From assembly GCA_001600175.1 (NCBI GenBank), contig BCJC01000003.1, positions 310,001 through 374,000 on the forward strand: a DNA stretch of 64,000 bases, read 5' to 3'. This DNA is from Erythrobasidium yunnanense (taxonomy: Eukaryota > Basidiomycota > Cystobasidiomycetes > Erythrobasidiales > Erythrobasidiaceae). Below the pieces are notes generated by a model, which saw nothing but the letters and a program-made list of their open reading frames with translations, was not told the origin of the DNA and made no database searches. Below, in pieces: positions 145 to 25,940 of this stretch (positions within the stretch are counted from its first letter, which is position 1; every line of letters begins with the position of its first letter). The position numbers and the translations under genes were made by a program.

Positions 145-963
145 TTAAGCGGATATCGGCGCGATGCGTTCGCTGTTGAAGATGACGACGTTGCCTGCGC
201 CTGCAATATTAGCGGCATCTGTTGCCTTCTGCTTGCGCGAGAACTAGAAGAAGACAGTATAGCATCAGGCTAATTTCCTTCTGTGCCAGATGAGCACATC
301 GTACCAAGTCTCTGATTCTTGCCAACTTGCCTCGAGGCGGGGTGGACTGCTGCCGCCCACGAAGCATACCCCTGACTATTGCATGATGCTGTGCTCTGCG
401 GTCCAAGCCTTCAAGATTGCTCTTCGCAGTCTCGAAGAAGAGCTCCAATACTCGAATGGTATCTTCGGGCAGGTTACGTTGGAACTCTGGCATCAACAGG
501 TCGAGGTATTGTCCTATACCTTTCCATCTGCAGTAATCCCACTCGAAATCCTCCCAGCTCTCCAGAATGACCGCGGCTGTCCAAGGTGCCAGAGGCTCGA
601 ACAACGCAGCCAGCGCTCCTTCGAACTTCAGATAATTGGCCGCGTCGAGAGCCGGCATACTCGTTTCCAGAACACTTATGATGACTTGCTGCCAAGTACT
701 GGGCGCTCAGCTTCCTGCTCCGACCTTATTAAGGCTGCACCAGCACTCACAACGCTGCTTTCAGGTGGAACCGGATCCGCCAGGAAAGCAATTGAGCGTA
801 CCAGTCGAAAGAGCTCGATAGGGCTCTGCTCTGGTTTGTTTGCAACGTCCTCCCATGTTTGCGGTTCTCGCTCCAACCATGCTGGACAAGGATACACGAA
901 CTCGGGGCCTGGTACGATGCGATTGCGCGGCTTGGGACTGCGACTTGCGATAGGAGCATACAT
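145..963 (-). CDS. LERSIAF/PWxA family protein, copy 1
   Basis: I do not recognise this family; it is defined here by comparing copies within the window. The model has three exons (963-751, 688-305, 243-145) and encodes 231 residues. Both introns (62 and 61 nt) are phase 0 with good donors. Exon 1 carries VPGPEFVYPC, a WLER segment and LVRSIAF near its end. Exon 2 carries LFEPLAPWTAAV, then W-x-YC and a run of amphipathic helix-like sequence. Exon 3 gives a polar tail containing GNVVIF, matched by GDVTIF in copy 2, which supports the splice. No signal peptide or membrane segment is visible. Copy 2 lies 165 bp upstream in the same orientation and is the closest relative by eye. Function unknown. 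Confidence 0.72.
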
Positions 964-1128
964 TGTGCTAATTACTCATAAAGAAGGATTCTCAGATCAT
1001 GGAGCAAAAAGCTGGAAGCTAGCGTCTTATATCGGTTGGCCCGTCTGACAGTAAACACAAGATTACGGGTCAGGGGCTACTCAGTTCGCATTGACAGTGT
1101 CTTCGGTAGCTGTCATCCCTGATTACGT

Positions 1129-1946
1129 CTACGCCTGTTCAGAAAAGATGGTAACGTCGCCGATCTTTGCGACCTTTCCTTGTTCGTTCACGACCGGCTT
1201 GCGTCTTCGTAGTACCTAGATATGTAATGTAATGCTCAGGATATTGTTTCTGCGCCGAAAGATCAAGTCGTCGTACCTTATCCTTGAAACGACTCAATCT
1301 TTGTGATAGAGTAATTCGCGGCGCAGCGTGCATCTGGAGCTGCTCCTTCGCCTTGCGGGCCTTGATATCAGCAGCCAGATCGGCAAGGACATCACCACTC
1401 TGCAGACGCTCTTTTGCGCGATCCAGATCGTCCGAAAGAACACGACTGTCGCTCTCAGGCAGCAGACGCAGGATATCTGGCATTACGATGTGGAGATATC
1501 GAGCCAGGCCCTTCATCAAGCAGTACTGCCAATCCTCTCTGTCCGAGCTGTCCATGACGATGGCCGCTGTCCATGGCCCCAAAGGTTCGAAAAGTGCACG
1601 CAATGCTTCGTCAAAATGCTCGTAGCTGGAGACATCGAGTGCTGGCGTGCTCCGTTGTACGATGTGGCTGACGAGATCCTGTAAAGTATCTGCTCAGGCT
1701 TTTCTCTCGTCTTGGTGCTCGCGGTCCACCTACAATGTCGTTTCTGTCTGGAACTGCGCTCGACAAAAACGCTATCGATCTTTCCAACCGAAACAGCTCT
1801 TTTCCAACCTGCTGCAGCTTGCTGTCGGCGTCCTCCCAGGATTGAGGTGTGCGCTCCAGCCATGCTCGGCAAGGATAGACGAATTCTGGTCCTGGCACAA
1901 TACGGTTCGCAGGCCTGGGATTGCGGTCTCCAAACTCGTTTGACAT
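1129..1946 (-). CDS. LERSIAF/PWxA family protein, copy 2
   Basis: This is a second member of the unrecognised family, with exons 1946-1734, 1678-1277 and 1215-1129 (233 residues). Exon 1 has 71 codons, exactly as in copy 1, and shares VPGPEFVYPC and a full LERSIAF. Exon 2 carries LFEPLGPWTAAIV followed by W-x-YC. The second intron is 61 nt, as in copy 1. The short third exon encodes a basic stretch (RRRKP) and then GDVTIF. ATG 1946 was chosen because it gives the same exon 1 length as copy 1; an in-frame upstream ATG is possible. The gene is head-to-head with a helical gene beginning at 2161, with 214 bp between start codons. No known domain is apparent. Confidence 0.72.
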
Positions 1947-2160
1947 GCTGGATGAAAGTATGCTTCGACGTATCGGAATCTGCATAAGCGGGAGAGCAAT
2001 GCTTACAGACGTCTGCCGCACGGGCTTCGGATGGCGGCCGACGACAGGTTCCGAGAGGCGTATACTTTGACTAGAGACGAGGCGTCGAGGAGCGCAAATG
2101 CTCTGCTCGTATGCCTGGCGCATCTCAGCCTTCTCTTCTCTTCAACAATCGACGACCACA

Positions 2161-3445
2161 ATGTCTGATCCTCTCGGCGTAGCTGGCGAAATCGTGGGCG
2201 GCTTGAGATCATGGTGGCATGAGGTACTGAACGAGAAGGTCATCGCTCCACTTCTGCGCACGGAAGTCATTCTGCACGTAGGCCACACCATTGTCCGTGT
2301 TGGCCATCATCGCTGAACTCAAACACCAGCTGAGCGACCTGCAACGAACGCGACAACATGCGGATCTAATTCTGCAAGCGTTACTGAAAGTACTTCGGCG
2401 AACCCCGACACTACAAAACGCTGTGGAGTGGCACATGGCACCGCATGCGATTGCCCGCCAATTTATAGACGAACGTCTTGGCTTTCCGGATCTTAAACCC
2501 TCCCCGACCATTCAGAAGCTCTCGATGCACACTGGCAAATCTTCCTTCTCGATCAGAGCTCTAAATTTCCTCGGCACCGCCTCTCATGTCACCAGACAAA
2601 TCAGCGAAGCTGCGGCGGACGCGCCAGAAACGCTAGCGACCCAGTTTGAGAAGTACATCAACAACGTAAAGCTGGCTTGTTCGCAGTTAAAAGTTGCAAA
2701 CACCGGTATCCTGGACCAATATTACGCGATGACTTTTATTGAACTTCCTTTGGAATCCATGCATGCCAACAGAATGCTATTGAGCACCGTGCCTACTTCC
2801 AGTGGTGCAGTACCGGACTTTCCGTTCCATGGACAGTACACAGGTCAGCGCCATAATCACGTCCCAAACTTCCAAGTCCTGGGACCCTCCAACGGTAAGG
2901 TTGTTTGTTGTCTCTTCGCCAGCCGTGCCGTCTGACACCTGAGCTGTACAGAACAATCAAGACGCATAGACACAACTCTGGAAGAAGGCATGGCGTCGAT
3001 TGACCTGGGTCAATCAACTTCCCGCACTGCAAAGGACCCGACTCTTGATCGCGTGCGCGCCGTAGTGGAAGCCGATCTGTCAGAACAGCACAGAACCAGC
3101 ACTGGGTGCGCCCCTTCAGCAGGCCACCCCGCTGCAGCTCGCGCGTCTGCGGATGCTCCTCGTCGAGCGTCATCGTCAACAGGTATTTCGACCTCTCTTC
3201 GATGCTTTGGCAAGTCTTTAAGTGATCAAATTTCAGGAAAGTGTGGATGTGCGCACACTTCTGGAGAAGCCTACGAGCTGAACAATGAGCCCGTGCAAGG
3301 TTTCTCTGGAGGATGGGTCGACGAGGAACGAAGCGCCGGCCAAGCTAGCAGGTCTAGAGGCACTCGTCGCAGAAACGGAAACAGGCGTGGCAGAAGAGCC
3401 GCTTCAAGAGGTTCGATCAACCACACTGGCGCTAGTGCACAATGA
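2161..3445 (+). CDS. Unrecognised helical protein, 3' end uncertain
   Basis: The first exons are well supported: 2161-2223, 2282-2894 and a third from 2952, joined by a 58-nt phase-0 intron and a 57-nt intron. The product begins MSDPLGVAGEIVGGLRSWW and is rich in predicted amphipathic helix, with no membrane segment. After about 3100 the most coding-like stretches lie in different frames: LARLRMLLVERHRQQ near 3140-3180, and an acidic helical stretch from 3285 to 3518. The end given here (3445) is only one possible model through a 57-nt intron near 3182-3236. Either the splicing is more complex or the 3' end is decaying. The helical LLVERH stretch faintly resembles part of the 24279-25168 gene, which also stands head-to-head with a family member. 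Function unknown. Confidence 0.5.
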
Positions 3446-3692
3446 GCGTCTCTGTCGTAGCCGTTCAATGGCGTTCAGGATTATGTTTTCGCTGATCGTA
3501 TACCCGAAGCTCGCTTAGAACATTTAAATCAACCCCTCCCTCTGTCCGCGCGATAGTCGCCGCAGTTAGCATGTCTTAGACTTGTTCTGTCAGTATTGAT
3601 GCGACTCAGTGTGTCGTCGTATTATAGATTTCTGCTAGGAAAGCTCTAGATATCTCAGGATGCGATATACGATATACAGGGTCAAAGCAGAC

Positions 3693-4438
3693 CTATCGCG
3701 TTGAAGGCTTGTTTGAGCGGGAGAGCTTTGATCCACGACCACCATGCATCATCAGCATGTTTCCGTTGATCTCTCGAAAATGTATTAACTCACCCGCCGT
3801 TTCAGGGCAGCCAGGCACCCGCCAGGCTTTCTTCCAGACGGACTGGAAGCTTGCTTGTACGCCCAGACTATGGCCTGTGCCTCTGCAAACTCTATCCAGC
3901 CTGCTGCGTTCTCCTCGTACATACGCAATATGCCTGCTTCTTGCTCTGGAAGACGAGACCAAATTTCGGGCGACAGGCACGCCAACAGTTGCAGCATGGC
4001 TTGCTCTATCCTATACTTCCAGACAAGCTCCTGCTTCCAGTTGACGACAACACTAGCGCTCCATGGTGTCAAGGCCTTGAAGGTCGCGGACAGAGCTTGA
4101 TCGATTGCGGGCATGTTGCTATCATCGACGTTAGAACGCAAGACGTTGAGGACATACTTCAGCCTATCCTGAATACCCAGAAGTCTCAGTAAAGATGGTT
4201 CGTGGCCATGGCGATGCGTCACGACACATACGGTATCGCACACACACCACTCGCCGTTGATGAAGGCTATCGACCGCTCCAGCCTGGCGAGCTCACTTGA
4301 AGCCTCCCAGATTCTGGACCTCGCTTCGTTGACAGATTGAGCTGGACAACTTGGCCAGTTGCTGCCGGGTCGCACCCAATTCTCCTGCTCTGGCTTCAGG
4401 CTGACAGGAGCGACTAGCCATACTTCTGTCTTATCCAT
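3693..4438 (-). CDS. LERSIAF/PWxA family protein, copy 3
   Basis: Third family member, exons 4438-4232, 4168-3794 and 3725-3693 (204 residues). The product starts MDKTEVW, has WVRPGSNWP, LARLERSIAFINGEW at the end of exon 1 and KALTPWSASVV in exon 2. The last exon encodes LSRSNKPSTR, almost the same tail as copy 5 (LSRSNKPSS), which fixes the second splice. The first intron (63 nt) has no stop and is a multiple of three, so an unspliced message would still be open. The gene is tandemly arranged with copy 4, its closest relative by eye: both exon 1s are 69 codons long. Function unknown. Confidence 0.75.
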
Positions 4439-4440
4439 AC

Positions 4441-4860
4441 TACGACAGTGGAAGAGACAGATGAAGCAGAAACAAAGTCGCGCAAGAGGCAACCACAAAA
4501 TTTTACGATCCGAATCGCACCTGCATTCTCCGCACCAGCAAGCCTTCGCGATATCGGAAACCCTACGCACGCAACCGAGATCTTTGCAAGTACAATACTC
4601 TTGCTTCGAGGCTACTCTTCATCAGGAATTAGCCGACTCTCTTTTTTCTGGTGACTCCTGAATCAACGAATATGGCAAGAACACACGCTTGGGAAAACGC
4701 ACTCTTCGAGATCGAGATTACCAAGCTCAAGATCAAGGTAGACGGCGAGCGACCGACTAGAGAAGAGCTAAGTACTGAGCTATCTCTCAGCTGTTAACGC
4801 TAAATCATGTCATGATAGGCTGCGAGGATGATCAAACATGGCCAGCGATCATCTCACAAA
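4441..4860. repeat. Upstream segment duplicated with copies 3 and 4 (copy a)
   Basis: This segment upstream of copy 3 is clearly related to 5977-6400 upstream of copy 4. Shared blocks occur in the same order, for example the stretch around AAGCCTTCGCGA, the one around AGCCGACT, GTAGACGGC with AGAGAAGAGCTA, and CATGTCATGATAGGCT. It shows that the duplication copied gene plus upstream DNA as one unit. On the plus strand it holds a small open frame (4672-4797) with a coiled-coil-like stretch that is less open in the other copy. Confidence 0.7.
4672..4797 (+). pseudogene. Small open frame, possible relic exon
   Basis: A 41-codon frame starting MARTHAWENALFEIEI with a lysine/glutamate-rich helix. 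The matching place in the second duplicate (about 6230-6330) keeps the VDG and REEL residues but not an open frame from the same start. Conserved codons beyond a possible GTACTG/GTACCA donor continue with HVMIG in both duplicates. This looks like the first exon of an old gene that was copied together with the family member. It could also be chance coding in conserved upstream DNA. Confidence 0.3.
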
Positions 4861-5232
4861 TAATAGTATGATCCCGTCCCCACCGGTGAGCCTTGTCAGA
4901 ACAATAGACATTCGACTCGTCGCTAATTGTGGTTGTCTGTCAAAGTCGGCGTGAGCGATGATGTGATGGCCACCGGTCATGCTGTTTGGAGTAACGAAAG
5001 CATCGTGCCTACTGCATGAGAAGGTCTGGCTGTCTTTTGACTGGGAAGTAGCTATACGCTACGGTCATGGCTGGAGAAAATGCAGAAACACGATATCGGT
5101 GATCACTTTTAAGTTATCTCACTACAATCAGGCAATACTCGAGCAGTTGATGTCCTGCATAATTATTCATGGTCAATACTGGTGTCGCTTGACTGTCGCA
5201 ATCTTGATTGTAACGAAAAGGCGCGCGGTCGT
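4861..5232. other. Intergenic stretch, nothing recognised
   Basis: Between the upstream segment of copy 3 and the stop codon of copy 4 I see no supported gene. An 85-codon open frame (4979-5236, plus) has no family resemblance or intron structure and is probably chance. Confidence 0.5.
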
Positions 5233-5976
5233 TTAGACGTTGTTCAAAGATCGTTTGCTCGTAACCTGTACGATAGACATGCATGTGTAAGAGGAGACCT
5301 AGTCAGAACAGAATTGTTCAGAATACCTGACGTTTGACCTTGGCTATCGCACGCCTCAGCTTGCTACTAGACGGCTTGAGTGCCATCTGCTCCCGCTCCC
5401 AGATGCTAGCTTCCAACTCTGTTATCCTGACCTTCCTTTCTGCGCTTCGCTGATACGAGCGCAAGATCTTTGCTTTATCCCCTGGAATCTGAGCCCAGTG
5501 CTCGGAGCTGAGACAAGCCAGCAGTCGCAGCAAAGTTTCTTCTACTCTGCATTTCCAAATAAGCTCTTGCTGGAAGCTCTCCACAATCCTTGCAGCCCAT
5601 GGTGTCAAGGCTTCAAAGCTATCAGCCAGGGCCTGGTCGATTTGACGGAAGTTGTTGGCGTCGACAACCTGACGAAGGGCTTCAAGAACATCGCTTAGCT
5701 TCTCCTGTGCATCCAAGCAACTTAGTCAAGCTACAGGGGTTCGTCTTGAAGTGACATCATGCAACTTACGGTGTCAAAAACGACCCACTCGCCGTTTACG
5801 AAGGCTATCGACCGCTCCAACCTGGCAAGCTCGCATGCGCCCTTGAAGATTCTGGCTCTCGTTTCTATGACAGTTTGAGCTGGACTTGCAGGCCAATCGC
5901 TTCCCGGGCGTATGAATCCCGGTTCTGGCTTTAGGATAGCTCTGGGCATTGTGAACCAAAGATCAAGCTTGTCCAT
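5233..5976 (-). CDS. LERSIAF/PWxA family protein, copy 4
   Basis: Fourth family member, exons 5976-5770, 5704-5327 and 5265-5233 (205 residues). The product begins MDKLDLWF, contains FIRPGSDWPASPAQTV, then LARLERSIAFVNGEW, and EALTPWAARIV in exon 2 followed by IWKCRVEE. Both introns are phase 0 (65 and 61 nt; donors GTAAGT and GTATTC). The short third exon encodes a basic tail containing SKRS. Exon 1 is exactly as long as in copy 3, and the upstream 400 bp are also shared, so copies 3 and 4 are a tandem duplication. Function unknown. Confidence 0.75.
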
Positions 5977-6400
5977 ATCTCGAACTTATGTGGAGTAAAG
6001 AAGAGACAGATGGCACGAAGCAGAAATACCGTCGCGAAGAGGCGATCACGATTGTTGCGATTTGAACTGCACCATTCTCCACATTGGCAAGCCTTCGCGA
6101 GTTCGGCAGCCCTACATGTATATACGCAAGCGAGATCCTTGCGATCACGACTCTCTACTCTCAAAGCTACTCTTCTTCAGCAATAAGCCGACTTGCATTC
6201 TCTGGTGTCTTCAGAAATCGATCAATATGCCCGCAGCATAAGAATGTATCCTTCGAGGACGAGCTTACCAGTCTCTAGATCATGGTAGACGGCAAACACC
6301 TCAATAGAGAAGAGCTAGGTACCAAGTCATTCGTTCGCTTTTGAAGCTGGACCATGTCATGATAGGCTCCGAGCATGATCAGACACTACGCAAAGAAGAC
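5977..6400. repeat. Upstream segment duplicated with copies 3 and 4 (copy b)
   Basis: Second copy of the segment described at 4441-4860, in the same position relative to its family gene. Substitutions and small length changes are frequent, so the duplication is not recent. Confidence 0.7.
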
Positions 6401-6765
6401 AATGATACGCTATCACTGAGGTACTCAAAGTACAGCTGAAAGTGTTGGAGTTGGCCGAGAAGATCAAGAAGGATGCCTATCTATACAGCCGCCACGGAAC
6501 CTGCTACAATGCACCTATACCTTCACGCACTCTTTTGTTTCGCAAGACTGTGTCCAACTGGCAACCGTCAAATCGGACGTCGAGTCATCGACAAGTCGAC
6601 CGCTGAAACCGAACACGATCAGGCAGCACCTGGCATTGGTCGGGAGCGTTACGACAAATTTGCAAGCTCGACATCAGCAAGTTTCAGAGGCTCAGGCTTT
6701 ACTCCCTGCAGAATGAGGGTGAGTTCAATGAAATTCAAAGGCTTGCTTGCGCTAATGCTAAACAT
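6401..6765 (+). pseudogene. Coding-like relic of an unrecognised gene
   Basis: From about 6420 the plus strand reads as helical protein (KVLELAEKIKKDAYLYSRHG and onward) and again near 6660-6760, but stops and frame changes interrupt it and no start is clear. It may be the 3' continuation of the relic exon upstream of copy 4. I cannot assign a family, and a functional spliced gene is not excluded. Confidence 0.3.
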
Positions 6766-7833
6766 CTACAGCGAATCCTCCCCACGGCTCTCCTTCTCAA
6801 ACATCCTCTCATATTCCATCCTCTCTCTTTCCTTCTCCGCTCTTCTCCTCCGCTCATACTGCTCTCGACTCTGTCCGGCTCCCGACATCAAGCCAAATTC
6901 GTTCGCAGTTGGGTCGCTGCTAGAAGAGCTAGATGTATTGCTCATCTGTTGTCGTGCGTTCGTTTGTCGTATCTGTTCCCATGCTGAATCACGCTGATCA
7001 CGTACACCTCGCAGTTCCTCCCATCTCGTCCGCTTGGGTGGCCCGCCTGGATATTATGTCTGTCAGGACAGATACTTTAGATATGAGCAGCTATTAGACT
7101 CACTTTGGTCTCTCCTTTGCGTTGGATTAGCAGGATCAGGGACATCAGATGCGGAAACAAAGCCACTCTCGTTCACGCTATTCCTAGGCTCATTACCCAA
7201 TTCTTTAGCGAAACTACTATCTCCCCATGCCCTGTTCTGAGGCTGCGAGTCTGGAGGCTGAGACGTGTCCCGCTCGAAATGTCTGTTCAATCTTGAATTC
7301 TCGCCAGAATCTGCGTTCTTATCGCCGTAGAAATTGGTAAAGTCGCTTTGGTTCACTTGCTCAGGCGGTCTTTGTCCTTGCAACTTCCTTTTTTGTCGAT
7401 CTGTAAGAATCGCCGCTTCGCTAGCTTGAGACTGCGGTCCAGGCATTCCGAAGGCGTCTCTTGTAATACCTGAATCACCTAGCAGGCCGTCGTTCCGATT
7501 ACCAGCCGGACCTGCTCCATTCGCCGCCTGATAGTTGTCCATCACATCCTTCTGGACCTTCTTCATCACTTTCTCTATACTCTCGTAGTTTCCCTCGCGA
7601 TGTAGGATCTTCGCGCTCTGGCGCATCCCTATCACGAAGCCGACAGACTGACCCAGTAGAACGCCTCCTGCACTGAAAGCTATAGTCTTCAGTGTCTGGC
7701 CAAAGCGATCTCGAACGGCATCGTGATCTGGGCCATTCCGAAAGCCATTCGGGAACAGTTTTGGAAGCTTCGACCACCGAGTCGGGTGATAGCGTCCTCT
7801 GAGTGCTAGTAAGATACCCAGACCGCCTAGCAT
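6766..7833 (-). CDS. Small membrane-associated protein of unknown function
   Basis: Two coding exons, 7833-7104 and 7046-6766, joined by a 57-nt GTGAGT intron. A possible 5'UTR intron ends just before the ATG. The N-terminus is hydrophobic (MLGGLGILLALRG). A second hydrophobic segment at roughly residues 50-70 (TIAFSAGGVLLGQSVGFVIG) is followed by a basic helix (MRQSAKILHREG). The rest is polar and low in complexity, and the C-terminus is a charged helix rich in Arg and Glu. The layout resembles small mitochondrial or ER membrane proteins, but I do not recognise the family. Confidence 0.6.
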
Positions 7834-9184: not shown

Positions 9185-9426
9185 GATTACGTGCAAGTGA
9201 GAGAATCGTATAGTCTACCCAAGCCTGTCTTTATTCATTCGCGACACGGCTCTGGGAGTTTCGGTAGGCAGGATAGATGTACTCATCTTGAGCTGCAACG
9301 ATTGTGATTACTACGTTTAGAAGTGATACTTGACTGTCCTCGCCCATCTCAATTGTTCTTCAAGCTTTCGACCATGACCACCCTTGCTTTTCTAACAAGT
9401 ATGCGGTCTTCCTGACCCGCCCAGCC

Positions 9427-12905: not shown

Positions 12906-13006
12906 CGAACGTGTTGTTGGGCAGATTGAAATGAAGAACGGTCACTCGGAAATCACCACATATGTATCGATACGTCGCTAGATACAAACAATCTGTTTCA
13001 ATAAGT

Positions 13007-14830
13007 CTAATAAGCTACCCCTGTCTCTGGCCGAGGACGAGAGTCTTGCCTCCAAGCGCCATAGTACTGTTTAGCCATCACGCTCGCAGCTAGCGCGATG
13101 GACAGCGCCGTCAGAGCAAGGTTGACAGGCCTATCGGAGAACAAGTTATGAGCATGAACGTCTGGCTGATAGGGCAATACAAGACTTACGTATAATTACC
13201 GGAGAGCTTCCGCTTCACAGTCCAGTCGACACCATACTGTGCAAAGTTGAAAAGGCCGCTTACAGCATTAGCGAAGCCGTAGACCGTCCCAAAAGTTTGG
13301 ACACCGATGATCTGTAGGCAGGTCAGCCTTTGGTATCAGAGCCGGCCTGATGCTTACCTTCGTGTAATAATCGGAAATTGTTGTATACCTAGACGACCTG
13401 TGAGCCTTCTTCATTACTGACGCAGTATGCGACATACATCAAGGGTCGCATGATCGTGAACATCAAGATGCCGACGATCTGGGCAGCAGCATTACCCGTC
13501 ATGCAGAGTACACCGTACCCCAGACCAAGTATCAGAAGAGCGCCAAAAGCGGTAAAGGAGCTTCTCTGGTCCAGCAGATATCCAATGAACGGTATGGAAA
13601 CGACGCCTCCTAGCGGGAGGAGGATAACGAACGCATCCGTCACTTTCTGTGCCAGATCGCCATCTTTTGTATAGTGTAGGACTTGTTCGTAGACTGTTGC
13701 TATCTCGTAGTTGATGCGAAGCATATAGCAAATCAGGAAGAGCTGAGGCAGCCAAAACCATGCGGTTGCGATTTGCTGAAGAGCAGTCTGACCCCAAAGC
13801 TTCCCTGTGATTGGGTCTTTGTGAGAAGCTTCATCATATGTGCCATCTACGGCAGCATCCGTAGCGTAATGTATGCGGGAGAAAGAGGAATCGTAAAAGC
13901 TGGAATGGCGGGCTTCGAGAGTCGGTCGAGGCGCATTTGCTGACTCGTGACTATCGTCTTGTAGAAGAGGAGTCTGCTCGTCCGCTGAGTCCGAGTCCTT
14001 CCCGCGCAAGTACGGCTCTTTCGGAGCCAAAAGGAACTGTTCAATGAGGATGCTGCGATCGAAGCTGCTGCTTAGCAGATGTGGCTTAACAACCTCTTTC
14101 ATGTACTCACATTGTCGGAATTATAGTATACAGCCAAAACCAAGTTCTGAGCGCGATGTGTCGCCGGCGATAGATGGCTGCGTAGAGGACGAAAGGCAGG
14201 CTGGAAGCATCGAATGCGCCAATGATGGAGCTCAGTATCAGTCCAGAGCGCTGTTAATACAATTGTTCAGCCCGCTTTCGCTTTGAGCAAACAGTGGAGA
14301 TGGCTGACTTTCGGGAACGCATTGCAGAGGTGAAAGGAAGACAAGAAGATCATAGGGCCTCCAAGAGCGAGTAGGATGTAGCCGGCAAGGAAGGTATCGA
14401 AACCTGCAGAGTCGGGCATGATACCGAGAAAGACATTCCCCAGCGCGAAGACCATGGCTCCTAAGATTGATGTATATCTCGGGCCCATTCTATCGAGGGT
14501 CATGCCAATAGGAAGCGCTCCAACATTGGTGAGGACGACAGAGATGGTGAAGGACAGATTAAGCTTGAGATCTTGTTCAAGACACGGTCGACCGGTGAGC
14601 CTTGACTTCTCCCCATCTTGATCGTTGTCGCAGTACGAAGCATATATGCCTTCATGAACGAGAACGGGCTTGAGTGCCGCAAAGCCTGTTCATACTCGCC
14701 TGCTCAGCAAAGAGAGCCAAGGAGAAGCAGAAACGACGAGCTTGCCGAAGATAACGCCCGCTACGAGCAGGCAGCTGAGCACCGCAAAGGCCACTTGAAA
14801 CAACCGAATACCAGTTCTGGGATGTGGCAT
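13007..14830 (-). CDS. FMP42-type MFS transporter
   Basis: Multi-exon gene for a 12-helix major facilitator related to yeast Fmp42 and the SLC43 group. The start MPHPRTGIRLFQVAFA leads into TM1, followed by GFAALKPVLVHEGIY and CDNDQDGEKSRLTGRPC. Further landmarks are LPIGMTLDRMGPR after TM2, the loop with PITGKLWGQT, then WFWLPQLFLICYMLRINYEIAT, and IGVQTFGTVYGFANA near the end. The C-terminus is ETGVAY. The central cytosolic loop holds an acidic motif (EQTPLLQDD). The first intron appears to be GC-AG (donor GCAAGC). Yeast Fmp42 was found in mitochondrial fractions; the substrate is unknown. Confidence 0.85.
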
Positions 14831-15035
14831 CGAACTGGCTTTGCGACAGAAAGACAACAGCAGACCGATGGATGGATCTGATAAGCTAGCTGATAAGGCC
14901 TCTCGAGCGAATCGATCAAGACCGAAGGAGTCCTTATGGATCCTTTGACGCGACTCCTGGTAAAGCTATTCCATCGGACAGATTAACAGCCAAAGCGAAA
15001 GTTCTCTGCCCCTCCTTCGCGATGTACGATCAAAT

Positions 15036-17003
15036 CTACTGCTGCCATCTATCCTTCAAAGAAACGAAAAGCTGAGCTCCCTGCGGCTGTGCGTTGAATG
15101 TATCGTTCTGAATGAACATCTCATCCTTCATGCGCGGATCTAGCCTGACATCGAAGCGTCGAAATAGGTTCGTTGCTGCTTGAGACAGCTCCATCATTGC
15201 CAAGCTGACAGCAAGAAACATCAGTAGGAGGGTACTGTCTCATTATGCAACGAACAATCTTACTTGCGACCGACGCATGCACGAGGGCCTATTCCGAAAG
15301 GCATGAAGGCATCGTTCAGATCTCGACCTGTAATCTCTTCCAGCCAGCGACTTGGACGGAAGTCATCGGGCTCAGGGAAATAATCTTCGTTATGGTGCAT
15401 GGTCCAGCAAGTTGTTAGAACCTCGGTCTATAACCCAAATCAGCGCCAGCACATTGCAGGGTATACATTTAACTTACGCCTTTGGGTACGACCACGCCAT
15501 CGAGTACGGTATCTTCAGTAGCTATACGGGGCTGAGAGCCGATGATTGCAGGATATCTTCGGAAGGTCTCCTTGAGAACGGCATTCAGGAAAGGCAAACG
15601 CCGTGTAATCTGTCTCAACGTTTCAGCTCCCTCATCTCCGTCATGCCTGGTTTCTACACTTACCGCATAGGACAGATATTCACCCTCTGGCACCTCATCT
15701 GTACTGCGGACTTCCTGTTCCAGCTCGGCGAGAACATTCTTATCTCGTGTAACCGCGTATATAAGGGTTACCATCGTGTTTGCAGTGGTTCCAGAACCGC
15801 CAAACCTGTTCAACACGGTCAAGATGCGTTTTTACCTTTTGCGATACTCCGTCGACTCACATCAGTCCCATGCCCTCTTCTGCCAGTTGGCTATCGGTCA
15901 GCAACCGGCCTGTAGATGAGTCCGGCTCTTTAAGCATCTTCCCAAGGTATACTGTGTTGACATCTTCTGCCCTAGCTTTGCTGACAACGTTGAGCGAGAA
16001 CTAGATGATCGGCCAAGACGCTTGTCAACTTGTTGCTCTCATGTTAACAGCGATCTGGAAAGGTACGCACTTCTTTCCACGCTCTGAGATCTGCGAAACA
16101 CCGTCCAACTGAACCCGGTAGGTAATGACCAAAGTGATTCAACCAATGACCAAATGTCTGACGATAGATGAATGCATTCTTCCAGGCAGCAAGATATCGC
16201 ATTGTAACGTTGGCTCGTCCGGCTTCCAGCAGTTTTGCATCGACATCAAACGCCAAAGCCATCTGGACCGGTGGATGTCAGTGATCGGCAGCTGCAACAA
16301 TATTTCTCAGCTCTTACCATTGCTTCGAAGCCAAGCCAGTGCAGCCACGGGAAGACTGCATACGAACTAATCGTAAGCACTGCTTACAGATTTTGGCGAA
16401 CGCTTCTCACTCACCGTTGATAGGACCAGACTGCGCTCGTCGAGACCATTGATCAAGAAGCAGAGAGATCTTCGCGTTCATAGTCGGCTCGAATTCTTGC
16501 AGCGACTGAGCCGAGAATGTGCGTGCAGCTAACTTTCGCCGAGCTGCGTGCTTGACAGGATCGCGAGTGCTGAACAAGTGATGTTCCTGGTACATCTTGC
16601 GAGCTTCGTAAAACTAGGCCAAGCAGTATCAGCTTGGGAATAGACTGAGAAATCTGAGGACGCCTACTTCTGATTTCTGGAAGCCTTTATGACCGTATAT
16701 TTGCTGGAGGACAGCGGGATTGGCGAAAGACAGTTCATTAGGTGCCACGCGAACGACAGGACCATATGCTCGATGCGCGTCTAGCATGGAGTGCGCTCTT
16801 CGATATCTCCAATCTGCTCTCTTCTTCCATAATGTCGATACGGAAGCCAGCCGAGGTCCCGGAACTTTGGCAAGGGGATGAAAGTATGCATTATAGAGTG
16901 TTTTGACGAGGAATGAGACGCAAGTGAGCGACATTACGAGGTAAGGGAGATTGCCGGCAAGACCAGATAGATCGCTTGCGTCAAACGCGAAAGGAGATGC
17001 CAT
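15036..17003 (-). CDS. Cytochrome P450 monooxygenase, microsomal type
   Basis: A membrane-anchored fungal P450 in several exons. The N-terminal anchor (LPYLVMSLTCVSFLVKTLY) is followed by the proline-rich hinge HPLAKVPGPRL. The I-helix oxygen-binding region reads FGGSGTTANTM, the K-helix ExxR is in LKETFRR, PERF-like residues are in DDFRPSRW, and the heme loop is FGIGPRACVGR with its cysteine ligand (around 15260-15310). All catalytic landmarks are present, so the enzyme should be functional. It would receive electrons from P450 reductase at the ER. The substrate cannot be inferred. It is divergent to the permease at 17269, with 265 bp between start codons. Confidence 0.93.
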
Positions 17004-17268
17004 CGTACCAGAATTGTATGTCCTGATGCAAAGTAGGGCTGTGAAGAGAGGGCCTGCTCCTCCATCTCACCTACTTTCGGGGAACCAACGGGACAAGCCA
17101 TTCGGCAGTCTTTCCAAGGGCCGGCGATGCCTATTCTGTGGCTCCAAGGGATTGGTTCCCCACGTCTCTCCGCGTAATGAGCATTTCCCCATCCCTTCCT
17201 TCCAAAGCATCTCTTCCCTTCTCTCCTTGCCTTCTGCTCCAGGAACCTAGCTGTTCACATTTAACACC

Positions 17269-19594
17269 ATGACTGACATCGAGAAACGAGACGATGAGCT
17301 GTTCGAAAATGCTTCATCAAGTAGACAAGATACCTACGGGGTCAAAGATGCTGCTATCGATGGTCAGCCCGCTACCGACAGTTCTGGGCAAGCCCTTGTC
17401 ACAATCGATGAACAAGCCGAGAAGCGTCTACGAAGGAAGATGGACCTGTACCTCATCCCTGTGGTATTCATGCTCTACTTGTGGACTTTCATAGACAGGT
17501 ACCTTACCCGAACTTGAACGTCGATACCGAGCTGATGGATCTCGGACTATAGGACAAATATTGGCAATGCACGAATAGCTGGCTTGGAGCGAGACTGTGA
17601 GCTAATCCTCATGCATTCTAGCTACATTTATTGCCTTTGCTAAATGTTACTACAGTGGGAATGAGGGGTGGGCTCTATGCTGTAGACTGACGGCAGATCG
17701 CTAACAAGCGTACTCTAGGTTACGATTACAACATAGCTCTTACAAGCTTCTATGTGGCTTACGTGGTCTTGTAAGTCATGCCCGCAATGTGTCAATGCGC
17801 CGCTGAGTGTACCTGTTCCTTCAGCGAAATTCCAAGGTATTTCAACACTGTTGTAACGAGGTGCTGATGCTGACTACTATATCACAGCAATATTATCTGC
17901 AAGATAGTAGGACCGGGCAAATGGATCCCCTTCTTGGTGTTCTCCTTCGGGGTCGTCTCGATGTGCACGGCTTTCGTAAAGAGCTATGCAGGGCTTGTCA
18001 TCTGCCGCTTCGTCATCGGAGCCTTGGAGGGTAAGTACAATGTCGTGAACTCTGATACGTCGCTGAAGACATCCGTAGGTGGCATGCAGCCGGCTTTAGC
18101 ATTCTACCTGTCGCGGTAAGTATAGAAGTCATTCGGTCAGTAGCAAGTACTGATGTATGTGGCTTAGCTGGTACACACGTTCGGAGCTTGTCTTCCGGAT
18201 CGCTTGGTATGGGCGAGCAGCCCAAGCTTCCGTCTGATTAATACTGAGCATAAGCTTTTTTAGGTACATTGTAGCTGCTCCAGCTTCAGGAATGTTCGGA
18301 GGTGCTTTGGCATACGGCATTTTGTCCATTGACAGCATCGGTTGGATGAGACAGTGGCGCCAGCTGTTCTTTGTAAGTTGTCCTCGCTGCTCGTAGAGAG
18401 ATGAAAGGTTGAGTTTGACACCGCTAGGTCGAAGGCATCGTAAAGAGCTACTCTCCTTCCACACGTCGAGGTCGCGCTGAACTTTATTATCACAGGTCAC
18501 CTTCTGCATTGCAGCCATAGCCTACTTCATAATGGCCGACAGACCCGCAACTGCTAAATGGCTCTCCAACGATGAGAAGGCTCTAGCAATGAGTCGTGTC
18601 AAGCGCGAGACTCCCGCGCAGACCGAAGTCACGGAGAAATTGCGCAAGGCGTCCCTGTACTCTGGCTTGTTCAACATCAACTCGGCCATTATAGCACTGA
18701 TCTTTTTCTTCGTAAGTCATGCCAGTTCTGCCGGCAGATCGAGCTGATCATTGCTTGAAGGATGGAATCGCTGTGCAGGGAATTTCTGTGAGCCATCGTT
18801 CATGTAGTACAGCAAGCATCCGTGCTCATTGTTCCGTTCTAGGTCTTCCTACCTACACTCATCTCTGCGCTCTATCCTGGTCTCACGACTCTGGAGAAGC
18901 AGGCTCGAACTATTCCACCATATGCCGTAGCTTCCGTCGTTGTTCTTGGCCTGAGTTTGATCAGCTGGAAGATCCAGAGACGCGCGATAATGATGATCTT
19001 CACCGCACCTCTGGGCATTATCGGCTACGCACTGTAAGTGAACAGCTGTTTTCGCATATCGGACTACCGGCTTATGCTTATCTGAACGGACATTCAGGTA
19101 CCTCGGCTCATCCAATGTCACAGCACGTTTCGCTGGAACTTTCTTCATCATGGCAGGCGTATACCCATTCGGCGCCTACTGCTTGGCTTACTAGATCAGG
19201 TGCAATCACACTGGTCAGCTTTGGGGGCAACCTCGGTGGATTAGTGTCCACGTGGACATATCTACCTCGTCAAGCTCCCAATTACCGTATGTCATGCGGC
19301 TTCGGGAGGCATCGCACCAGTCTGAGCTGATCTCGCGATTTGCACTCCAGGCGAGGGCAACATAATTGGTATCGTTTCCACGACCATTATGTGCATTCTC
19401 TCTGCAGCTGTTTGGGCCTATCAAGTCCGGGAGAACAGGATTCGAGAAGCAGGTGGCCGTGATCACCGCCTGGAAGGGCTGACAGAAGATGAGATCGCGA
19501 TGCTCGGTCATCGACATCCCAGTAAGTACCTTGTCATGTCTTGCATATGTGCCTTGACTTATGGGATCATGCAGAATTCCGGTATACATATTAA
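17269..19594 (+). CDS. ACS-family permease (allantoate/DAL5-like MFS)
   Basis: Many short exons encode an MFS protein of the anion:cation symporter family, whose fungal members import allantoate, nicotinate, pantothenate and related organic anions at the plasma membrane. Evidence includes KMDLYLIPVVFMLYLWTFIDR before TNIGNAR, GYDYNIALTSFYVAYVVFEIPSN, GLVICRFVIGALEGGMQPAL with FYLSRWYTRSE, and MADRPATAKWLS in the central loop. The end is the family hallmark HPKFRYTY, recovered by joining the last exon at 19575. The shared promoter with the P450 and the adjacent regulator suggest a common inducer, which is inference. The exact substrate is unknown. Confidence 0.9.
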
Positions 19595-19933
19595 GGCATG
19601 GTATGGCAAAGCTGGCCAATTCGCAGCTGCCGATTCAGTGCAGTGGAGATGCTCTTCGTGATGTTCGATGACAGCAGTAGGAGTCTGTTAGGGCGCTGTC
19701 TGGAATAGTCATGGTGTCGCTGTTAGGAAAGTTCGGTGCAGTGCGAGTGTTGAATGTTAGTCTTGTATTTCGTTTTATGCAGTCCTCGTACTGCTTTCGC
19801 CAGGCAGATAAGCCAAGTATTATGTCCTTTAAGCGGCCTTCCGTGCCCCTCTTGTGCACCGTTCTGAATTGTTCAGATTGGATGGGCCGCCCGGCAACCT
19901 GCTGGCAACGCCTTGACTCTATACGAACACTTG

Positions 19934-22090
19934 ATGGAGGGATCTGAAGAACGAGATGCGCCATCAAGGCCAGCGAAGCGGCATCGCGTTGCTCTGGCTT
20001 GCACGAGCTGTCGTGCCCGCAAGAGCAAGTGTAATGGTGTCCATCCATCATGCTCGACCTGTATAGACAACGGCATCATCTGCATCTACGATGCGCCCAC
20101 TCAGCAGCGACTGCCTCTGACGGTGCGCCAAGAGTCAGTCGGCTTCCGCATAAGAACGCTACGCGATGCCAATCTTATATGTATAACACCCTTCCCAGAG
20201 ACTATGGACAGCTGCTTGGTCGTGTCGAGGTCCTTGAAGCGACTGTCGCCCGTCTCTCAGAGCGAAGGAGTCCGAAACCAGGCAAAAGTCACGACGAATT
20301 GGAAGCGCCGACATCGGGCAGCAATGCGAACGGTTCAGAGGGTGTTGATGCAATGGGCATAGCTTATCGCGTCGATAGGAACCGTCCTGGCTACTTTGGC
20401 TCGACCTCCGCTACCAATATCACCGAAATGCTACTGCGCGATGCACCAGTCGAAACTATAGCTCAACAAGAGGATGAGAAGTCCATAAATGCTAAGCCTG
20501 CCCTTCTCCTTCGCTTTCCTTTGAGCGAGAGCGTGAACGGGTTGCTCTTCCCATCTTTCAGAGTCGGAGATGAATTGCTGCGCATCTTCCAAGAAGACAT
20601 CTGGCCCATATATCCTGTCGTATCCCTGCCAACGCTTCGCGACATTTTCTATCGCATACAATCGACATCGTCGTGGCAGAGTGAACTTCCGAAAGCGCCC
20701 CAGCTTGGCTTGCTCTTTTCAATCTTTGCGCTAGCAGCGGCTCATGTCGGAGCCGAAAAGGATGGCGAGGCTTATTACGCTAGGGCGCAAAAGTATATGG
20801 AACATGACCATACCAGCAAACCTGGCGACAGCTTGTTCCAAGGTGAGACGGCCGTGTTCGCAGAAAGCACACCTTGCTGAAACCGAGATCAGTATGCAGT
20901 CATATGTACTCCGTTCTCTACCTTCAGTCAGGTGATCGCCCCTCCTCCGCCTGGCACTCTATTGGCAAAGCTTTACGCATTGCGATCGGTCTAGGCTTGC
21001 ACACAAGCAATACTGTGGCTCAGTTTGACACCGACGAGCTGCAGGAAATGGGAAGCAGGGCTTGGTGCAGTTGCCTGAATATCGACAGGTCGGCATCACT
21101 GCAGATGCGCAAACTCTATTGCTGACATACTCTCACAGGATGGTCAGCATGGCTCTCGGGAGGCCAAGCACCATCAGCTCACGCATAGGCTCCCAAAGAT
21201 TGCCGAGCAAATTATCACACGAGAAAGGTTCCGAAGTCAACTACTTGGTTCACTGTACCACCCTTTGCAAGATTCTTGGACGCATACTTGAAGATGTACA
21301 TGATGAATCGACAGTCAGGCCTTCCGACGAAGCTACCGCACTGCAAGCGGATCTTCTAGCTTGGCGAGAACAGCTACCCCTTCATCTGGACGCTCGTCAC
21401 TGTGAAACTACGGGCCATAGCTCGCAAGGTGCCGTCATGCTTGCTCTGCGATTCCATGCTATTCGAATGCTTCTGCACCGGCATGCGATACAAAAGCATT
21501 TGCAGTCGCTACACAGTCGAGAAGAAGTTCCAGGAAGCGGACACGACCCTGCAAGTATCAAAGTATGTGTAGATAGTGCACTCGAGACTATACAGCTACT
21601 GGAAATAATCTCTCGAATACCTCGCAACGGCGGAGCGACGTGGTATAGGCTATATTTCCGTGAGTACCTCGTACTCGCCTGTGTCCACTCCTAAAACATG
21701 TTCGTTGTCGCAGTATATAACGCTTTCACTATTCTGGCTGGTAGCCTAGTCATCGGAGGAATACCTCCGCAAGATTGGGCTTCACGAATGGCCAAATGTC
21801 GAAGTTGCGTTGATATGATAATAGAGCTTGGCCACAACTTTAGCTCAGCAAGGAGATGCCAAAGCATAGTCCGTGCCATCTTGGACAGTTTGAATCGGGA
21901 TCTTTCCGGTTTGGCCGTTCTGGCGCTTCCGGAAGGCGAAGAGATACCCGTCACAGATGCGCCCGCATATACCTGGACCTGGCCAGAAGACCTTGGCGCC
22001 ACTGCCTTCCCGTTTGAAGATCATGGAATCCAGATGGAGGACTCGCTGGCTCTATTCAACGGGGACCTCGCTTGGCTGAATTGTCAGTAG
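19934..22090 (+). CDS. Zn2Cys6 transcription factor with fungal_trans domain
   Basis: Five exons (19934-20133, 20199-20842, 20893-21088, 21139-21659, 21714-22090) give 645 residues. The binuclear cluster near residues 20-50 is complete: CTSC, KSKC, CSTC and IIC, preceded by a basic KRHR. A leucine-rich coiled coil follows (LLGRVEVLEATVARL). The middle homology region has IWPIYPVVSLPTLRDI, SIGKALRIAIGLGLH and MVSMALGRPSTI, typical of fungal_trans domains. The C-terminus is acidic. It lies 339 bp downstream of the permease on the same strand and is a candidate pathway-specific regulator of the permease and P450. Confidence 0.9.
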
Positions 22091-22334
22091 TCGTACGTAA
22101 CCTATCAGAGACAGGGGCGATCTGGGACTATACTTGACATATTTGCGATGAAAGGGAAGCTGCATAGCTGTCTGACAGGTGAGACAGCTCGGACGGACAA
22201 CCTGCATCTCGATGTCAGACAAATGACGCAACGCGAGCATGTCGAATCTTGTTCGGGCGGCAGCCGATGTCATGACACCTTGCAGAACATTGCTATCTTT
22301 GCGATTCTCTTGCCAGCGAGCGAAGTACCACAGA

Positions 22335-23122
22335 ATGGAGATGAGCCTAGAGCTAGTCCCTGCACGGCCAAGCCAACCGCTCGCCCCCAGTGCAGACTTC
22401 GTGCATCCAGGTAGCGAATGGCCAACATCACCGGCTAAGGACGTGAGGGAGGTTCAGAACCGGGTCATACAGAGCAGTAAGGAGTTGGTGAGGCTGGAGC
22501 GCTCCATAGCATTCATAGGGGACAACGGAAATGGGGAGTATCGTGAAACCGTACGTTTGGAAACCTTGTTGACGCGAAGTCTCGCCTGGTCTTGACGAAC
22601 TTATGTTGACAGGATAGATTGAAGGCAGTTCTGGCGATTATCGTTCCTCTGGTCACCTTATACAACTTTCGCGAGGTTGATGAGGCCATCAAGTCGATGT
22701 TCGAGATTCTGTCGCCTTGGGCTGCTTGCGCCATCAAGGATCCAGACGAAGACACTAGATGGAAGTACTGGGTCCATCGCTGCAATCTCCGCCTTATTCA
22801 CACCATCGAACCGCATGCGATAGCCAGCCTTCCAAAAGAGCAAGTCAACCTGCTCGAAATCTACTCGCAAGCTGCCAAGCATGCCATCGTTGTTGGGGAC
22901 GGGATGGCTCCAATATGGGCCAGCAATGCTGCTGCTGCCGCTGCTATCACTCCAAGTCGGCAAAGCGAGACAGCAGGTGGTGGAAAGCTGAAAGGCGGCC
23001 TGGCTGCGCTGAGACGCCAAGTAGGTCTAGCATCTCACATAGTACAACAGAAGAGAATGCTGATATGACATCGTGATCGTTGCTCATCATAGCTTTCCCG
23101 CTCGAATAAGCCATCGTCCTGA
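22335..23122 (+). CDS. LERSIAF/PWxA family protein, copy 5
   Basis: Fifth family member, on the plus strand, with exons 22335-22550, 22613-23020 and 23093-23122 (217 residues). Exon 1 has FVHPGSEWPTSPAKDV and LVRLERSIAFIG. Exon 2 has EILSPWAACAI, then RWKYW, and a small alanine-rich insert before GGGKLKGGLAALRRQ. Exon 3 encodes LSRSNKPSS, nearly identical to the tail of copy 3 some 19 kb away, which strongly supports the splice. Both introns are phase 0 (62 and 72 nt). Start ATG 22335 is followed by a second in-frame ATG at 22341. Function unknown. Confidence 0.75.
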
Positions 23123-23299
23123 ATCATTCGATGGCCGAATTGAGAGTGTCGTCTTGGCTGCGTGTACGGCCACCAAAAGCCATTTGACGCTGTCCTTCTC
23201 GATGATAGTAGTGCTACGAGGATTAATCACTATACTGTGGTCTTCAAGTGTAAGGTAAAGCGTATGTGTATCGTCTCAACAATGATCTGTACAGGGGAG

Positions 23300-24080
23300 C
23301 AAAAAAAACGGTTTCAGCCATGCTAGATCCGCCATCTGACAATCCAGCCCACGGTCTGTCAGATTGTGCCTCTCGTAATATGGAAAACGAGCAGTCGAGG
23401 TCAGCAAATGCGAGTATTGGCGTGCAAGGGAGACTTTTGCGCGAAATGGCAGATTCTGCAATTTCGCAGTGTTGAAGCTATTGGAACGCTCTATCGCTTT
23501 TATTGGCGAGAATGGAAATTCCGATGTCGACGATACTGTGAGCCGCTCGACAAGCGCTCGTTGGTGAATAGCCGCCAGATCCTCGCTGATGGTGCTACAT
23601 TCGATAGAGTGGTCTGAGAAGCATTCTCACTACGATATATCCGGTCGTGCAGACGAGTTTCGGCGAGGTCGATAGGGCTCTGGCTGCCATGTTCGAGCTG
23701 CTGTTGCCATGGGCTGTTTGCGTGATCAGGGAGCCCAAGCAGGACATCATCTGGAAGACTCTGATCCAGCAGAGTATTCTGCTCCAGATCGATGCGATGA
23801 AGCCGGAGGATTTGGCTCTGCTTCCAGCAGAGCGTGCCGCGATGCTGCAACTTATAAGGACAGCGCAAAGGCAGCGATGGAGAGAACAGAGACCAATGTG
23901 CAGATATGGAAGCTCGAACACGCTCAAGCAAGCCAACCGAGCGAGAAGCCAGTCGGTGGAAAGCTGAAAGGTGGCCTGGCTGAATTGCGACGGCAGGTGA
24001 TGTCTCATAGCCAGCAGTAATGAATGACAACAGCTCTAAAAAGGACATTAACTGCTCAAGGAATGTCTAGTCGCCGAGAA
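23300..24080 (+). pseudogene. LERSIAF/PWxA family member, broken copy 6
   Basis: Recognisable family segments appear in order: KLLERSIAFIGENGN (about 23475-23520), FELLLPWAVCVI (about 23690-23730), and GGKLKGGLAELRRQ (about 23955-24000). They do not sit in one reading frame even after plausible splicing, and the N-terminal WP-region is not recognisable. It is closest to the adjacent copy 5 by eye and follows it directly, so it looks like a tandem duplicate that has decayed. The alternative is a functional copy with altered splicing, which I consider less likely. Confidence 0.65.
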
Positions 24081-24278
24081 GTAGCCCAGAATGACAATCG
24101 ATATCGGGTTTCTGCACTGTCTCGATTCGATCCTGAAGCATATAGGCAGTCGCCTCAGACCAGATGAGAGTTACCCTGCTCACGCAGTAGGCACGATGCT
24201 TTCGTCATTCCAGACAGCATGACCGCTTGCAATCACCTCATCGCTCACCGGGACTGCGACAGACACTATAGTCAGCCA

Positions 24279-25168
24279 TCACTCAGGATCGACTGTAAGC
24301 TCACACTGACTAGGTGGGACGATATAGAATCGAAGTGATCGCTGGCCGTGGTCCCTGAGATGAGAGTTCAGGACAGTCGTGCACCAAATTGTGTTCTTTC
24401 TTAGTCCCTCCAATTTGCTCGATAATACACTATTGAGCTTTCCCGCCTCCTTGGAAAGTTGCTCAGGATTACCGGCGAGTGCCTTTCCTACTTCCTTAGC
24501 GCGTCGCTGCAAGCCTTTATAAAGGCGAGAAGCCTTGGATCCCAAAGTTGCGGAGGTGCCTTTACTCTGCATACTCGATTGTCGAGGATTGGCTCCCGCA
24601 CCATCCTTATCCTTTGCGGCTGGGACCTTATCCTTCGGCGGCAGGAGTGTCCTTTCATGCGCTTTCGTCACCAGTTTCAGCAGTGCACGGTAATGCTCTT
24701 CGCGCTGCTGTGTAATGAACTCAAGCGCAGAGACGCTTCTGCGCTCCATCTCTTTCCTGATGTGCTCAGAGTGCTGGATAGCCGTAAAAACATCGTCGAT
24801 CTGGCAGAGCAGGTCAGCTCAATGCTTAATAGGCTCGGATCGAGAGTCGCCCTGCTCACCGTTCCTTCCAAGTCTATCTGTGTGAATAAGCCTTGTCCTT
24901 TTGCATCGTCATGGGCTACCTTAGCATCTCCTAACCTTTCGACGAGCAGGGTGAATGCAGCATCGGCTCCAGCTGCCATTGCTCGAATTGCGTGCTTTGA
25001 ACGAGATTGAGAGCCATTCCCATCCTCGATACGCAGCAATGCAAAAGACGCCTCTTCATTCTCTCCTATAAGCGCCTCTCTGCGGTTGCTATCCGATGAT
25101 GCCTCGTGCTTGACAGGACGTGTCGGACCATGCATCCTGGGCCTTTTCTTTGCCAGTAGACGCAGCAT
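24279..25168 (-). CDS. Unrecognised helical protein paired with copy 7
   Basis: Two exons (25168-24860 and 24800-24279) joined by a 59-nt phase-0 GTGAGC intron encode 276 residues. The N-terminus is basic (MLRLLAKKRPRMHGP). The middle is helical, with AIRAMAAGADAAFTLLVERL and QQREEHYRALLKLVTKAHE. Next comes a Lys/Asp-rich low-complexity linker, then another basic helix (LYKGLQRRAKEVGKAL). There is no membrane segment or signal peptide. Only 23 bp separate its start codon from that of family copy 7 on the other strand. No family recognised. Confidence 0.6.
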
Positions 25169-25191
25169 CGATTTAACCAATCACCATAACG

Positions 25192-25940
25192 ATGATAGGA
25201 AGACTCAGACCAGAGCCCAGCCTTCGGGTGGAAACCAGCCAGAACTTCCAGTCCATCTGGCGCAATGTTTCTGCTTATTCTCCTGAGAGTGTCCAAGACG
25301 CAGAGAAGACACTACTACAATGTCGACTTGGATTGTTTCATCTGGAGAGGTCTATCGCGTTCGTGAGCGGCGAGGTGCTCAACTCGATGCTCCATGGTTT
25401 GGTAGGCCGCCCAAGTCGGACGCTGCTTCAGGGCTGACGTTGCCGAGAATCCATCATAGAGTGGCCTTGATAGCGTACTGCGTATCCTGTCTCGAGCGCT
25501 CAAAGATGACAATTTCCGAAAGATCCACGACGCCGCGGTCTCGATATTCACACCTCTGGAACCATGGGCCGCTGCTATTATCAAGTCCGAGGATGACGTT
25601 TTAAGCTGGTCATACTGCTATGCACAAAGCATGCGCCTGCTACTGGAGCCTTTGATGCCTGACATTTTGAGCGACATCGCGGAGGACAAGGTCGTAGAAG
25701 TCAAGTATCGCTTTGAAGCGGCAGAGGAGAATGTCAGGGGAATAGACGAGCTTGCTGCTTTTGAGGAACTTGCAACGCGCAACGATAGACGTCGCGAAAG
25801 TCTGCCTCGGAAAGCTTTCAGATGGGTCAAGGGAAGGGTGCGTAACCTTCTTTCGATGATGAGATTGTTATCTATGCTAATGACCATCGTTACAGATCAA
25901 TCGCAAGCCCAAGACGTCGGTGACGAAGACTGTAGCCTGA
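25192..25940 (+). CDS. LERSIAF/PWxA family protein, copy 7
   Basis: Seventh and most divergent copy, exons 25192-25401, 25460-25837 and 25896-25940 (210 residues). Exon 1 (70 codons) ends after LFHLERSIAFVSGE. Exon 2 begins with LDSVLRIL, has FTPLEPWAAAIIKS, then WSYCYAQ, and ends VKGR before the conserved second intron. Exon 3 encodes INRKPKTSVTKTVA, a basic tail like those of copies 3 and 5. Both introns (58 nt) are phase 0. The gene is head-to-head with the helical gene at 24279-25168. Function unknown. Confidence 0.72.

Follow-up and report, generated by a model that had tools for sequence, protein, structure and literature searches.

Fungi commonly carry multigene families that are restricted to particular taxa. 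Among the described fungal systems, the HeLo/HET-S-type cell-death proteins are small, intracellular and supposedly helical like the family reported here, and the wtf-type spore killers contain several transmembrane helices, produce dual poison and antidote transcripts and drive in crosses. We analyzed a stretch of 64,000 nucleotides from Erythrobasidium yunnanense (contig C3, 310001-374000; the window, numbered from its first letter), which carries seven copies of a small gene marked by the motifs LERSIAF and PWxA. Comparisons within this genome and with other records indicate that the family is real, old and wider than the window, and that it is without a name in the libraries searched. The observation made in an earlier sequence-only reading is confirmed and its interpretation in part supported. 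No HeLo-type model was found among the Pfam matches of the window proteins or of the members of two family alignments (A4 and A7), and the family differs from the HeLo/HET-S proteins in having no N-terminal hydrophobic stretch by hydropathy (seven proteins). It also differs from the wtf-type killers, since no 19-residue segment scored above 1.52 in the seven C3-type proteins.

The copies form two blocks, c1 to c4 on the minus strand (145-5976) and c5 to c7 on the plus strand (22335-25940). The first block is composed of c1 (145..963; exons 963-751, 688-305 and 243-145; 231 amino acids, aa), c2 (1129..1946; exons 1946-1734, 1678-1277 and 1215-1129; 233 aa), c3 (3693..4438; exons 4438-4232, 4168-3794 and 3725-3693; 204 aa) and c4 (5233..5976; exons 5976-5770, 5704-5327 and 5265-5233; 205 aa). 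The second contains c5 (22335..23122; exons 22335-22550, 22613-23020 and 23093-23122; 217 aa), c6 (23379..24020) and c7 (25192..25940; exons 25192-25401, 25460-25837 and 25896-25940; 210 aa). When exon 2 of c3 was used as a query against the whole genome (20.9 Mb in 10 contigs), the other six copies were recovered at E values from 7.7e-29 to 1.9e-6, and their similarity is therefore beyond chance. LERSIAF is present in six of the seven copies, c1 having LVRSIAF (together with PWTA), and PWxA likewise in six, c6 having PWAV.

The reading frames are intact in every copy except c6, as the sequence-only reading had described. In c6, the profile recognized only positions 50-69 of exon 1, at its end (E 0.0028), the start of the exon was not recognized, and exon 2 matched the family profile in two different frames; by these signs c6 is a decayed copy. 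In the six intact copies (c1, c2, c3, c4, c5 and c7), exon 1 has exactly the lengths given earlier, 71, 71, 69, 69, 72 and 70 codons, and is followed by a phase-0 GT-AG intron of 62, 55, 63, 65, 62 and 58 bases, respectively. These intron models were picked among several candidates by donor and by agreement between copies. The claim that all twelve introns are in phase 0 stood for intron 1 in all six copies; a phase-0 intron 2 can also be placed in all six, but it is well supported in c3 and c5 only. In these two it is backed by the nearly identical last exons (LSRSNKPSTR and LSRSNKPSS) and by a related protein from another record, P0001 (LSRTRKPST), whereas in c1, c2, c4 and c7 it is one choice among several candidates and plausible only.

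Relatives were sought with two profile searches of a set of 5.77 billion proteins. At a threshold of E 0.01, the first gave six matches from 7806 candidates; the second gave at least three from the 8000 candidates scored, at E 10 or better. Together they yielded seven relatives, P0001 to P0007, all of them jgi/ena records labelled only as hypothetical proteins with no Pfam domain listed. None was found outside such records in this set, whose fungal coverage is uncontrolled, and the family is likely lineage-restricted. Wherever intron places are visible in the relatives, they are like those of the window copies. P0001 (218 aa, from a contig of 934 bases) shares 89% identity with c5 across 218 residues, unbroken through both predicted junctions, with introns 1 and 2 both missing. 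P0002 and P0003 (52% and 49% identical to c5) read in frame through intron 1 at the same place as in c5, and P0003 additionally reads through intron 2 into SRSNKPSS. Because its introns are missing, whereas the gene calls of P0002 and P0003 seem intron-blind, P0001 is most simply taken as transcript-derived. P0004 is 66% identical to c2 over 134 aa, P0005 and P0006 are 76% and 72% identical to exon 1 of c7, and P0007 is 50% identical to the exon 2 piece of c6, with an open frame over the stretch of exon 2 that is broken there.

The duplications were dated from the substitutions between copies. Between c3 and c4, the proportions of differences at codon positions 1, 2 and 3 were 0.26, 0.21 and 0.46 in exon 1 and 0.38, 0.30 and 0.54 in exon 2, compared with 0.43-0.52 throughout intron 1, a pattern that shows a protein evidently held under constraint. 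Third codon positions were the most different in 14 of the 15 pairs. By the Nei-Gojobori method, c3/c4 is the youngest pair, with a nonsynonymous divergence (dN) of 0.48 and a synonymous divergence (dS) of 1.44; dS was 2.06-3.26 in four other pairs and saturated in the remaining 10 of 15. In a tree of 12 proteins, c5 grouped with P0001 (97/100) and c3 with c4 (100/98); c2 with P0004 (93/91) and the c6 piece with P0007 (92/88) fell under the star level of the tool, and c7 and the c6 piece sat on long branches with unsure placement. In a tree of exon 1, c7 grouped with P0005 and P0006 (99/83). The nearest relatives of c2, c5, c6 and c7 are thus in other records and not in their own genome, and the subfamilies therefore appear to predate the divergence from those organisms. 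These divergences indicate that the duplications are old. A rapid recent amplification was rejected on the dS values, and the rapid duplication proposed in the sequence-only reading is not borne out, given this saturation and the closer relatives of four copies elsewhere.

The family seemed confined to the window when c3, c5, c2 and P0007 were used as genome queries, which returned only window copies except for one match on contig C1 (E 0.048). Queries with c7 and with a spliced C1 member, d1, overturned this. The c7 query also matched C1:2995716-2996093 (E 2.0e-6), C1:2571537-2571737 (E 8.9e-4) and C1:2971819-2972076 (E 0.36), and d1 gave 18 matches (E 1.9e-99 to 0.68), 13 on C1, two on C9 and three on C3. 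We read the d1 matches as seven further putative genes: d5, d2 and d4 in tandem at C1:2569.5-2573.7 kb, d3 at C1:2971.7 kb, e1 and d1 at C1:2993.1 and 2995.4 kb, and f1 at C9:17.9 kb. Five of the 18 pieces contain a stop codon, and exon 1 of d5 has one in frame. Local amplification is not the whole story, as members also occur outside the window, on C1 (two places) and on C9 (one).

Profiles were tested on 1494 frames from the window and four fetched loci, where the best E value from reversed frames was 0.79. The window-group profile recognized exon 2 of d1 (7e-12), d3 (1.1e-7), d4 (1.7e-6), f1 (3.6e-5) and d2 (8.4e-5). A profile of d1 and d3 recognized e1 (2.8e-16) and d5 (2.8e-15), and also c7 (3.4e-9), c3 (4.1e-5), c4 (4.4e-5) and c2 (1.9e-4). 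Alignment of the two groups (seven and five sequences) with hhalign covered 164 columns across both conserved blocks, with P 1.6e-14. A phase-0 intron was found at the same place in five of the six C1/C9 copies tested (d5 was left out), after 82 codons in d1, 89 in d3, 85 in d4, 82 in e1 and 105 in f1, so that exon 1 has 82-105 codons in these members; d2 has only a poor candidate, d4 has no branch site and several copies have alternatives. The C1/C9 members share the two-block plan of the C3-type proteins, some of them being matched by the profiles in either direction, and are 18-23% identical to them in the pairs compared. They carry other residues at the two motifs (RWRLSFAI and PWVG in d1, for example), and c7 is the copy nearest to them.

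The shared plan is as follows. Exon 1 has a short start, then V-x-D/E-V/A, and an E-L-x-R-L/W-x-x-S-I/F/Y-A-like segment ahead of the phase-0 intron; exon 2 has N-x-x-x-I-x-x-A/S-L and an L-x-P/N-W-like core; the C3 copies carry a second intron as well, followed by a short last exon. The proteins have 204-249 aa in 11 models, the C-terminal ends of the C1/C9 models being not settled. From the common intron place and the profile matches, the old intron and the two-block plan therefore define the family, and LERSIAF/PWxA, offered earlier as the signature of the whole, marks the C3 branch but not the C1/C9 members. Taken together, these comparisons show that the small proteins form an old set of paralogs, of which 14 members were found in this small genome. 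A motif noticed by eye becomes a defined family with an old intron as its marker and with a relative, P0001, whose record lacks the predicted introns; the two branches together provide a profile that others can search with. Since families of this kind are frequent in fungi, the result is helpful for annotation and not surprising; a structure or a deletion phenotype that supplied a mechanism would change this.

The searches of known families agreed with the earlier statement that no named family has this signature, as neither Pfam nor PDB profile searches gave a credible match. Nothing rose above the Pfam curated cut-off for five window proteins (best E 0.13), for the 20 sequences of A4 (a single member reached the best value, E 0.016) or for the nine of A7 (likewise a single member, E 0.019), and six pieces of d1-d3 had no match up to E 1; Pfam matches of E 0.016 to 0.18, in the family and its neighbours, were set aside as chance. 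Three profiles had no significant match in PDB (best E 0.16, 0.19 and 0.19). In one of these searches, 17 of 21 rows came from chains of a single bacterial toxin subunit; these alignments spanned some 43 residues, with a best single-stretch i-Evalue of 9.3, and we rejected them as chance matches. Rfam at its gathering threshold gave no match in window positions 1-26500. A scan of bacterial and archaeal genomes with P0001, sensitive to close relatives only, gave 157 pattern matches and no confirmed one. No paper was found with LERSIAF as a motif word, which does not prove the family unpublished.

Two further classes were considered and rejected. Known anti-phage or defence proteins were represented by a single PADLOC match in one of six members (E 0.037), set aside as chance. 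Retrocopies or mobile-element genes are at odds with the intron at the same place in 6/6 C3 models and 5/6 tested C1/C9 copies; the best PHROGs match, also set aside as chance, had E 0.036, and none of 37 pattern matches in viral contigs was confirmed.

Protein properties were then compared between the branches. In eight of nine proteins from both branches, the net charge of the last 40 residues lies between +3 and +10, f1 being the exception with -1, and the middle part is negatively charged in seven of the nine. For the seven C3-type proteins, 5000 shuffles of each sequence reached the tail charge 4 to 147 times. The basic tails of c3, c5 and P0001 include RRQ-LSRSNKP-like runs. On the Kyte-Doolittle scale, the best 19-residue window of all seven C3-type proteins was at most 1.52 and started at residue 55-123; neither an N-terminal hydrophobic signal peptide, as in secreted effectors, nor a transmembrane stretch was found in these seven, by hydropathy and without a dedicated predictor. 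The N-terminus of f1 (C9, L077:3770-3823) reads MGQKASKSKSRSFFKHRH, and the basic C-terminal tail of its relatives is missing. Its start, MGQKASKSKSRS, resembles an N-myristoylation signal followed by a basic patch.

Because of the basic tails, the low hydropathy of the seven C3-type proteins and the f1 N-terminus, we favour, at a probability of about 35%, small intracellular helix-rich proteins whose basic tail holds them on a negatively charged surface. The conserved blocks would fold into a soluble intracellular domain, largely helical, which the tail would attach to that surface, the inner face of a membrane being the likeliest; f1 would be attached instead through its myristoyl-like N-terminus and basic patch. 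At the membrane, the domain may recruit another protein, and the old subfamilies may differ in partner or place. Several points weigh against this proposal. The helical fold itself is a guess: of 16 overlapping windows, only four showed helix periodicity at p<0.05, and the strand signal exceeded the helix signal in one. The hydropathy results cover only the seven C3-type proteins, and the myristoylation reading comes from one member. Some ties within the family are looser, as the window-group profile reached e1 and d5 at 0.0096 and 0.013 only, so that the tie runs mainly via d1/d3, and the d1 and d3 profile reached c1, c5 and the c6 piece at 0.013-0.038 only. The transcript origin of P0001 derives solely from its missing introns, the sample type of the record not being shown. 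Lastly, a basic tail may equally fit nucleic-acid binding or nuclear import.

This last point leads to a nuclear or nucleic-acid-binding family, in which the tail would be an import signal or an RNA/DNA binder and the core a protein-contact domain of regulators. The tails are consistent with it, being basic in 8/9 proteins with the runs described for c3, c5 and P0001, but the Pfam and PDB searches gave no credible nucleic-acid-binding domain, and in f1 the basic run sits at the N-terminus behind MG instead; we regard it as possible though doubtful. Equally tentative is an ordinary family, old and restricted to certain taxa, that has a routine role inside the cell and was multiplied through unequal crossing-over and drift. 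The old, mostly saturated duplications of a constrained protein, the common intron and the clusters at several places all suit it, and nothing speaks directly against it, but it points to no function either.

A conflict family, in which allorecognition, killer or anti-selfish-element genes are born and lost as copies, seems unlikely. In its favour are the clustered paralogs, the broken copy c6, the C1 copy d5 with its in-frame stop, and two neighbouring orphan genes, X and Y, which lack a credible Pfam match, X being also without a relative among 3295 candidates. However, the duplications are old, very fast turnover is at odds with the 50-89% identity that subfamily relatives retain in other records, PADLOC returned the single match at E 0.037, hydropathy revealed no transmembrane stretch in seven proteins, and no death-domain model was among the Pfam matches. 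The accessory or conflict role suggested by the sequence-only reading stands on multiplicity and decay alone, which neither show nor exclude it. A bolder version, in which a new fungal family of membrane-attached helical domains would serve recognition or conflict from several loci, together with divergent orphan partners (X, Y and two C1 frames, W and V), is very improbable in our estimate; the anchor would be the basic tail or, in one member, the myristoyl-plus-basic N-terminus, and the partner genes would be the convergent orphans.

In the flanks of the genes, the 4439-4839 region upstream of c3 is 72% identical to that upstream of c4 (about 6000-6385) over about 400 bases, with no codon-position pattern, compared with 59% in exon 2, 46-52% in the introns and 34% in the 3' flank. 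This sequence occurs at only these two places genome-wide at E 1 or better, and may be a conserved control region or a 5' untranslated part. A tiny gene at 4673-4775 upstream of c3 was rejected, having no codon-position pattern and a frame that is broken upstream of c4, as was an upstream coding exon of c3, whose protein query matched only itself.

Orphan gene Y (2161-3445, plus strand) is convergent with c3, and orphan gene X (about 24183-25168, minus strand) with c6. Pfam gave no match for Y and a single one for X (E 0.1), PDB gave none for either, and X had no relative at E 10 among the 3295 candidates of the protein set, a search that covered X and not Y. Between c3 and c4, an 87-base stretch (4933-5019, plus strand) matches 24266-24180 on the minus strand with 14 differences (4, 4 and 6 by codon position). 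The latter reads as the last exon of X (...SDEVIASGHAVWNDESIVPTA), and the DNA match extends to 226 bases; 4933-5019 is a possible relic of that exon. On C1, the orphan frames W and V (L056:3234-4076 and 5855-6658, both minus strand) are convergent with e1 and d1, and no sequence likeness was found among W, V, X and Y. Window neighbours above the Pfam cut-off carry LSM, cytochrome P450 and CS domains and, with the short introns, suggest a fungal genome. Between the two blocks, at 13389-22090, lie the cytochrome P450 gene (above the cut-off), an MFS transporter, whose Pfam match stays below it, and genes that by eye resemble another transporter and a zinc-cluster regulator; the group may be a small metabolic cluster.

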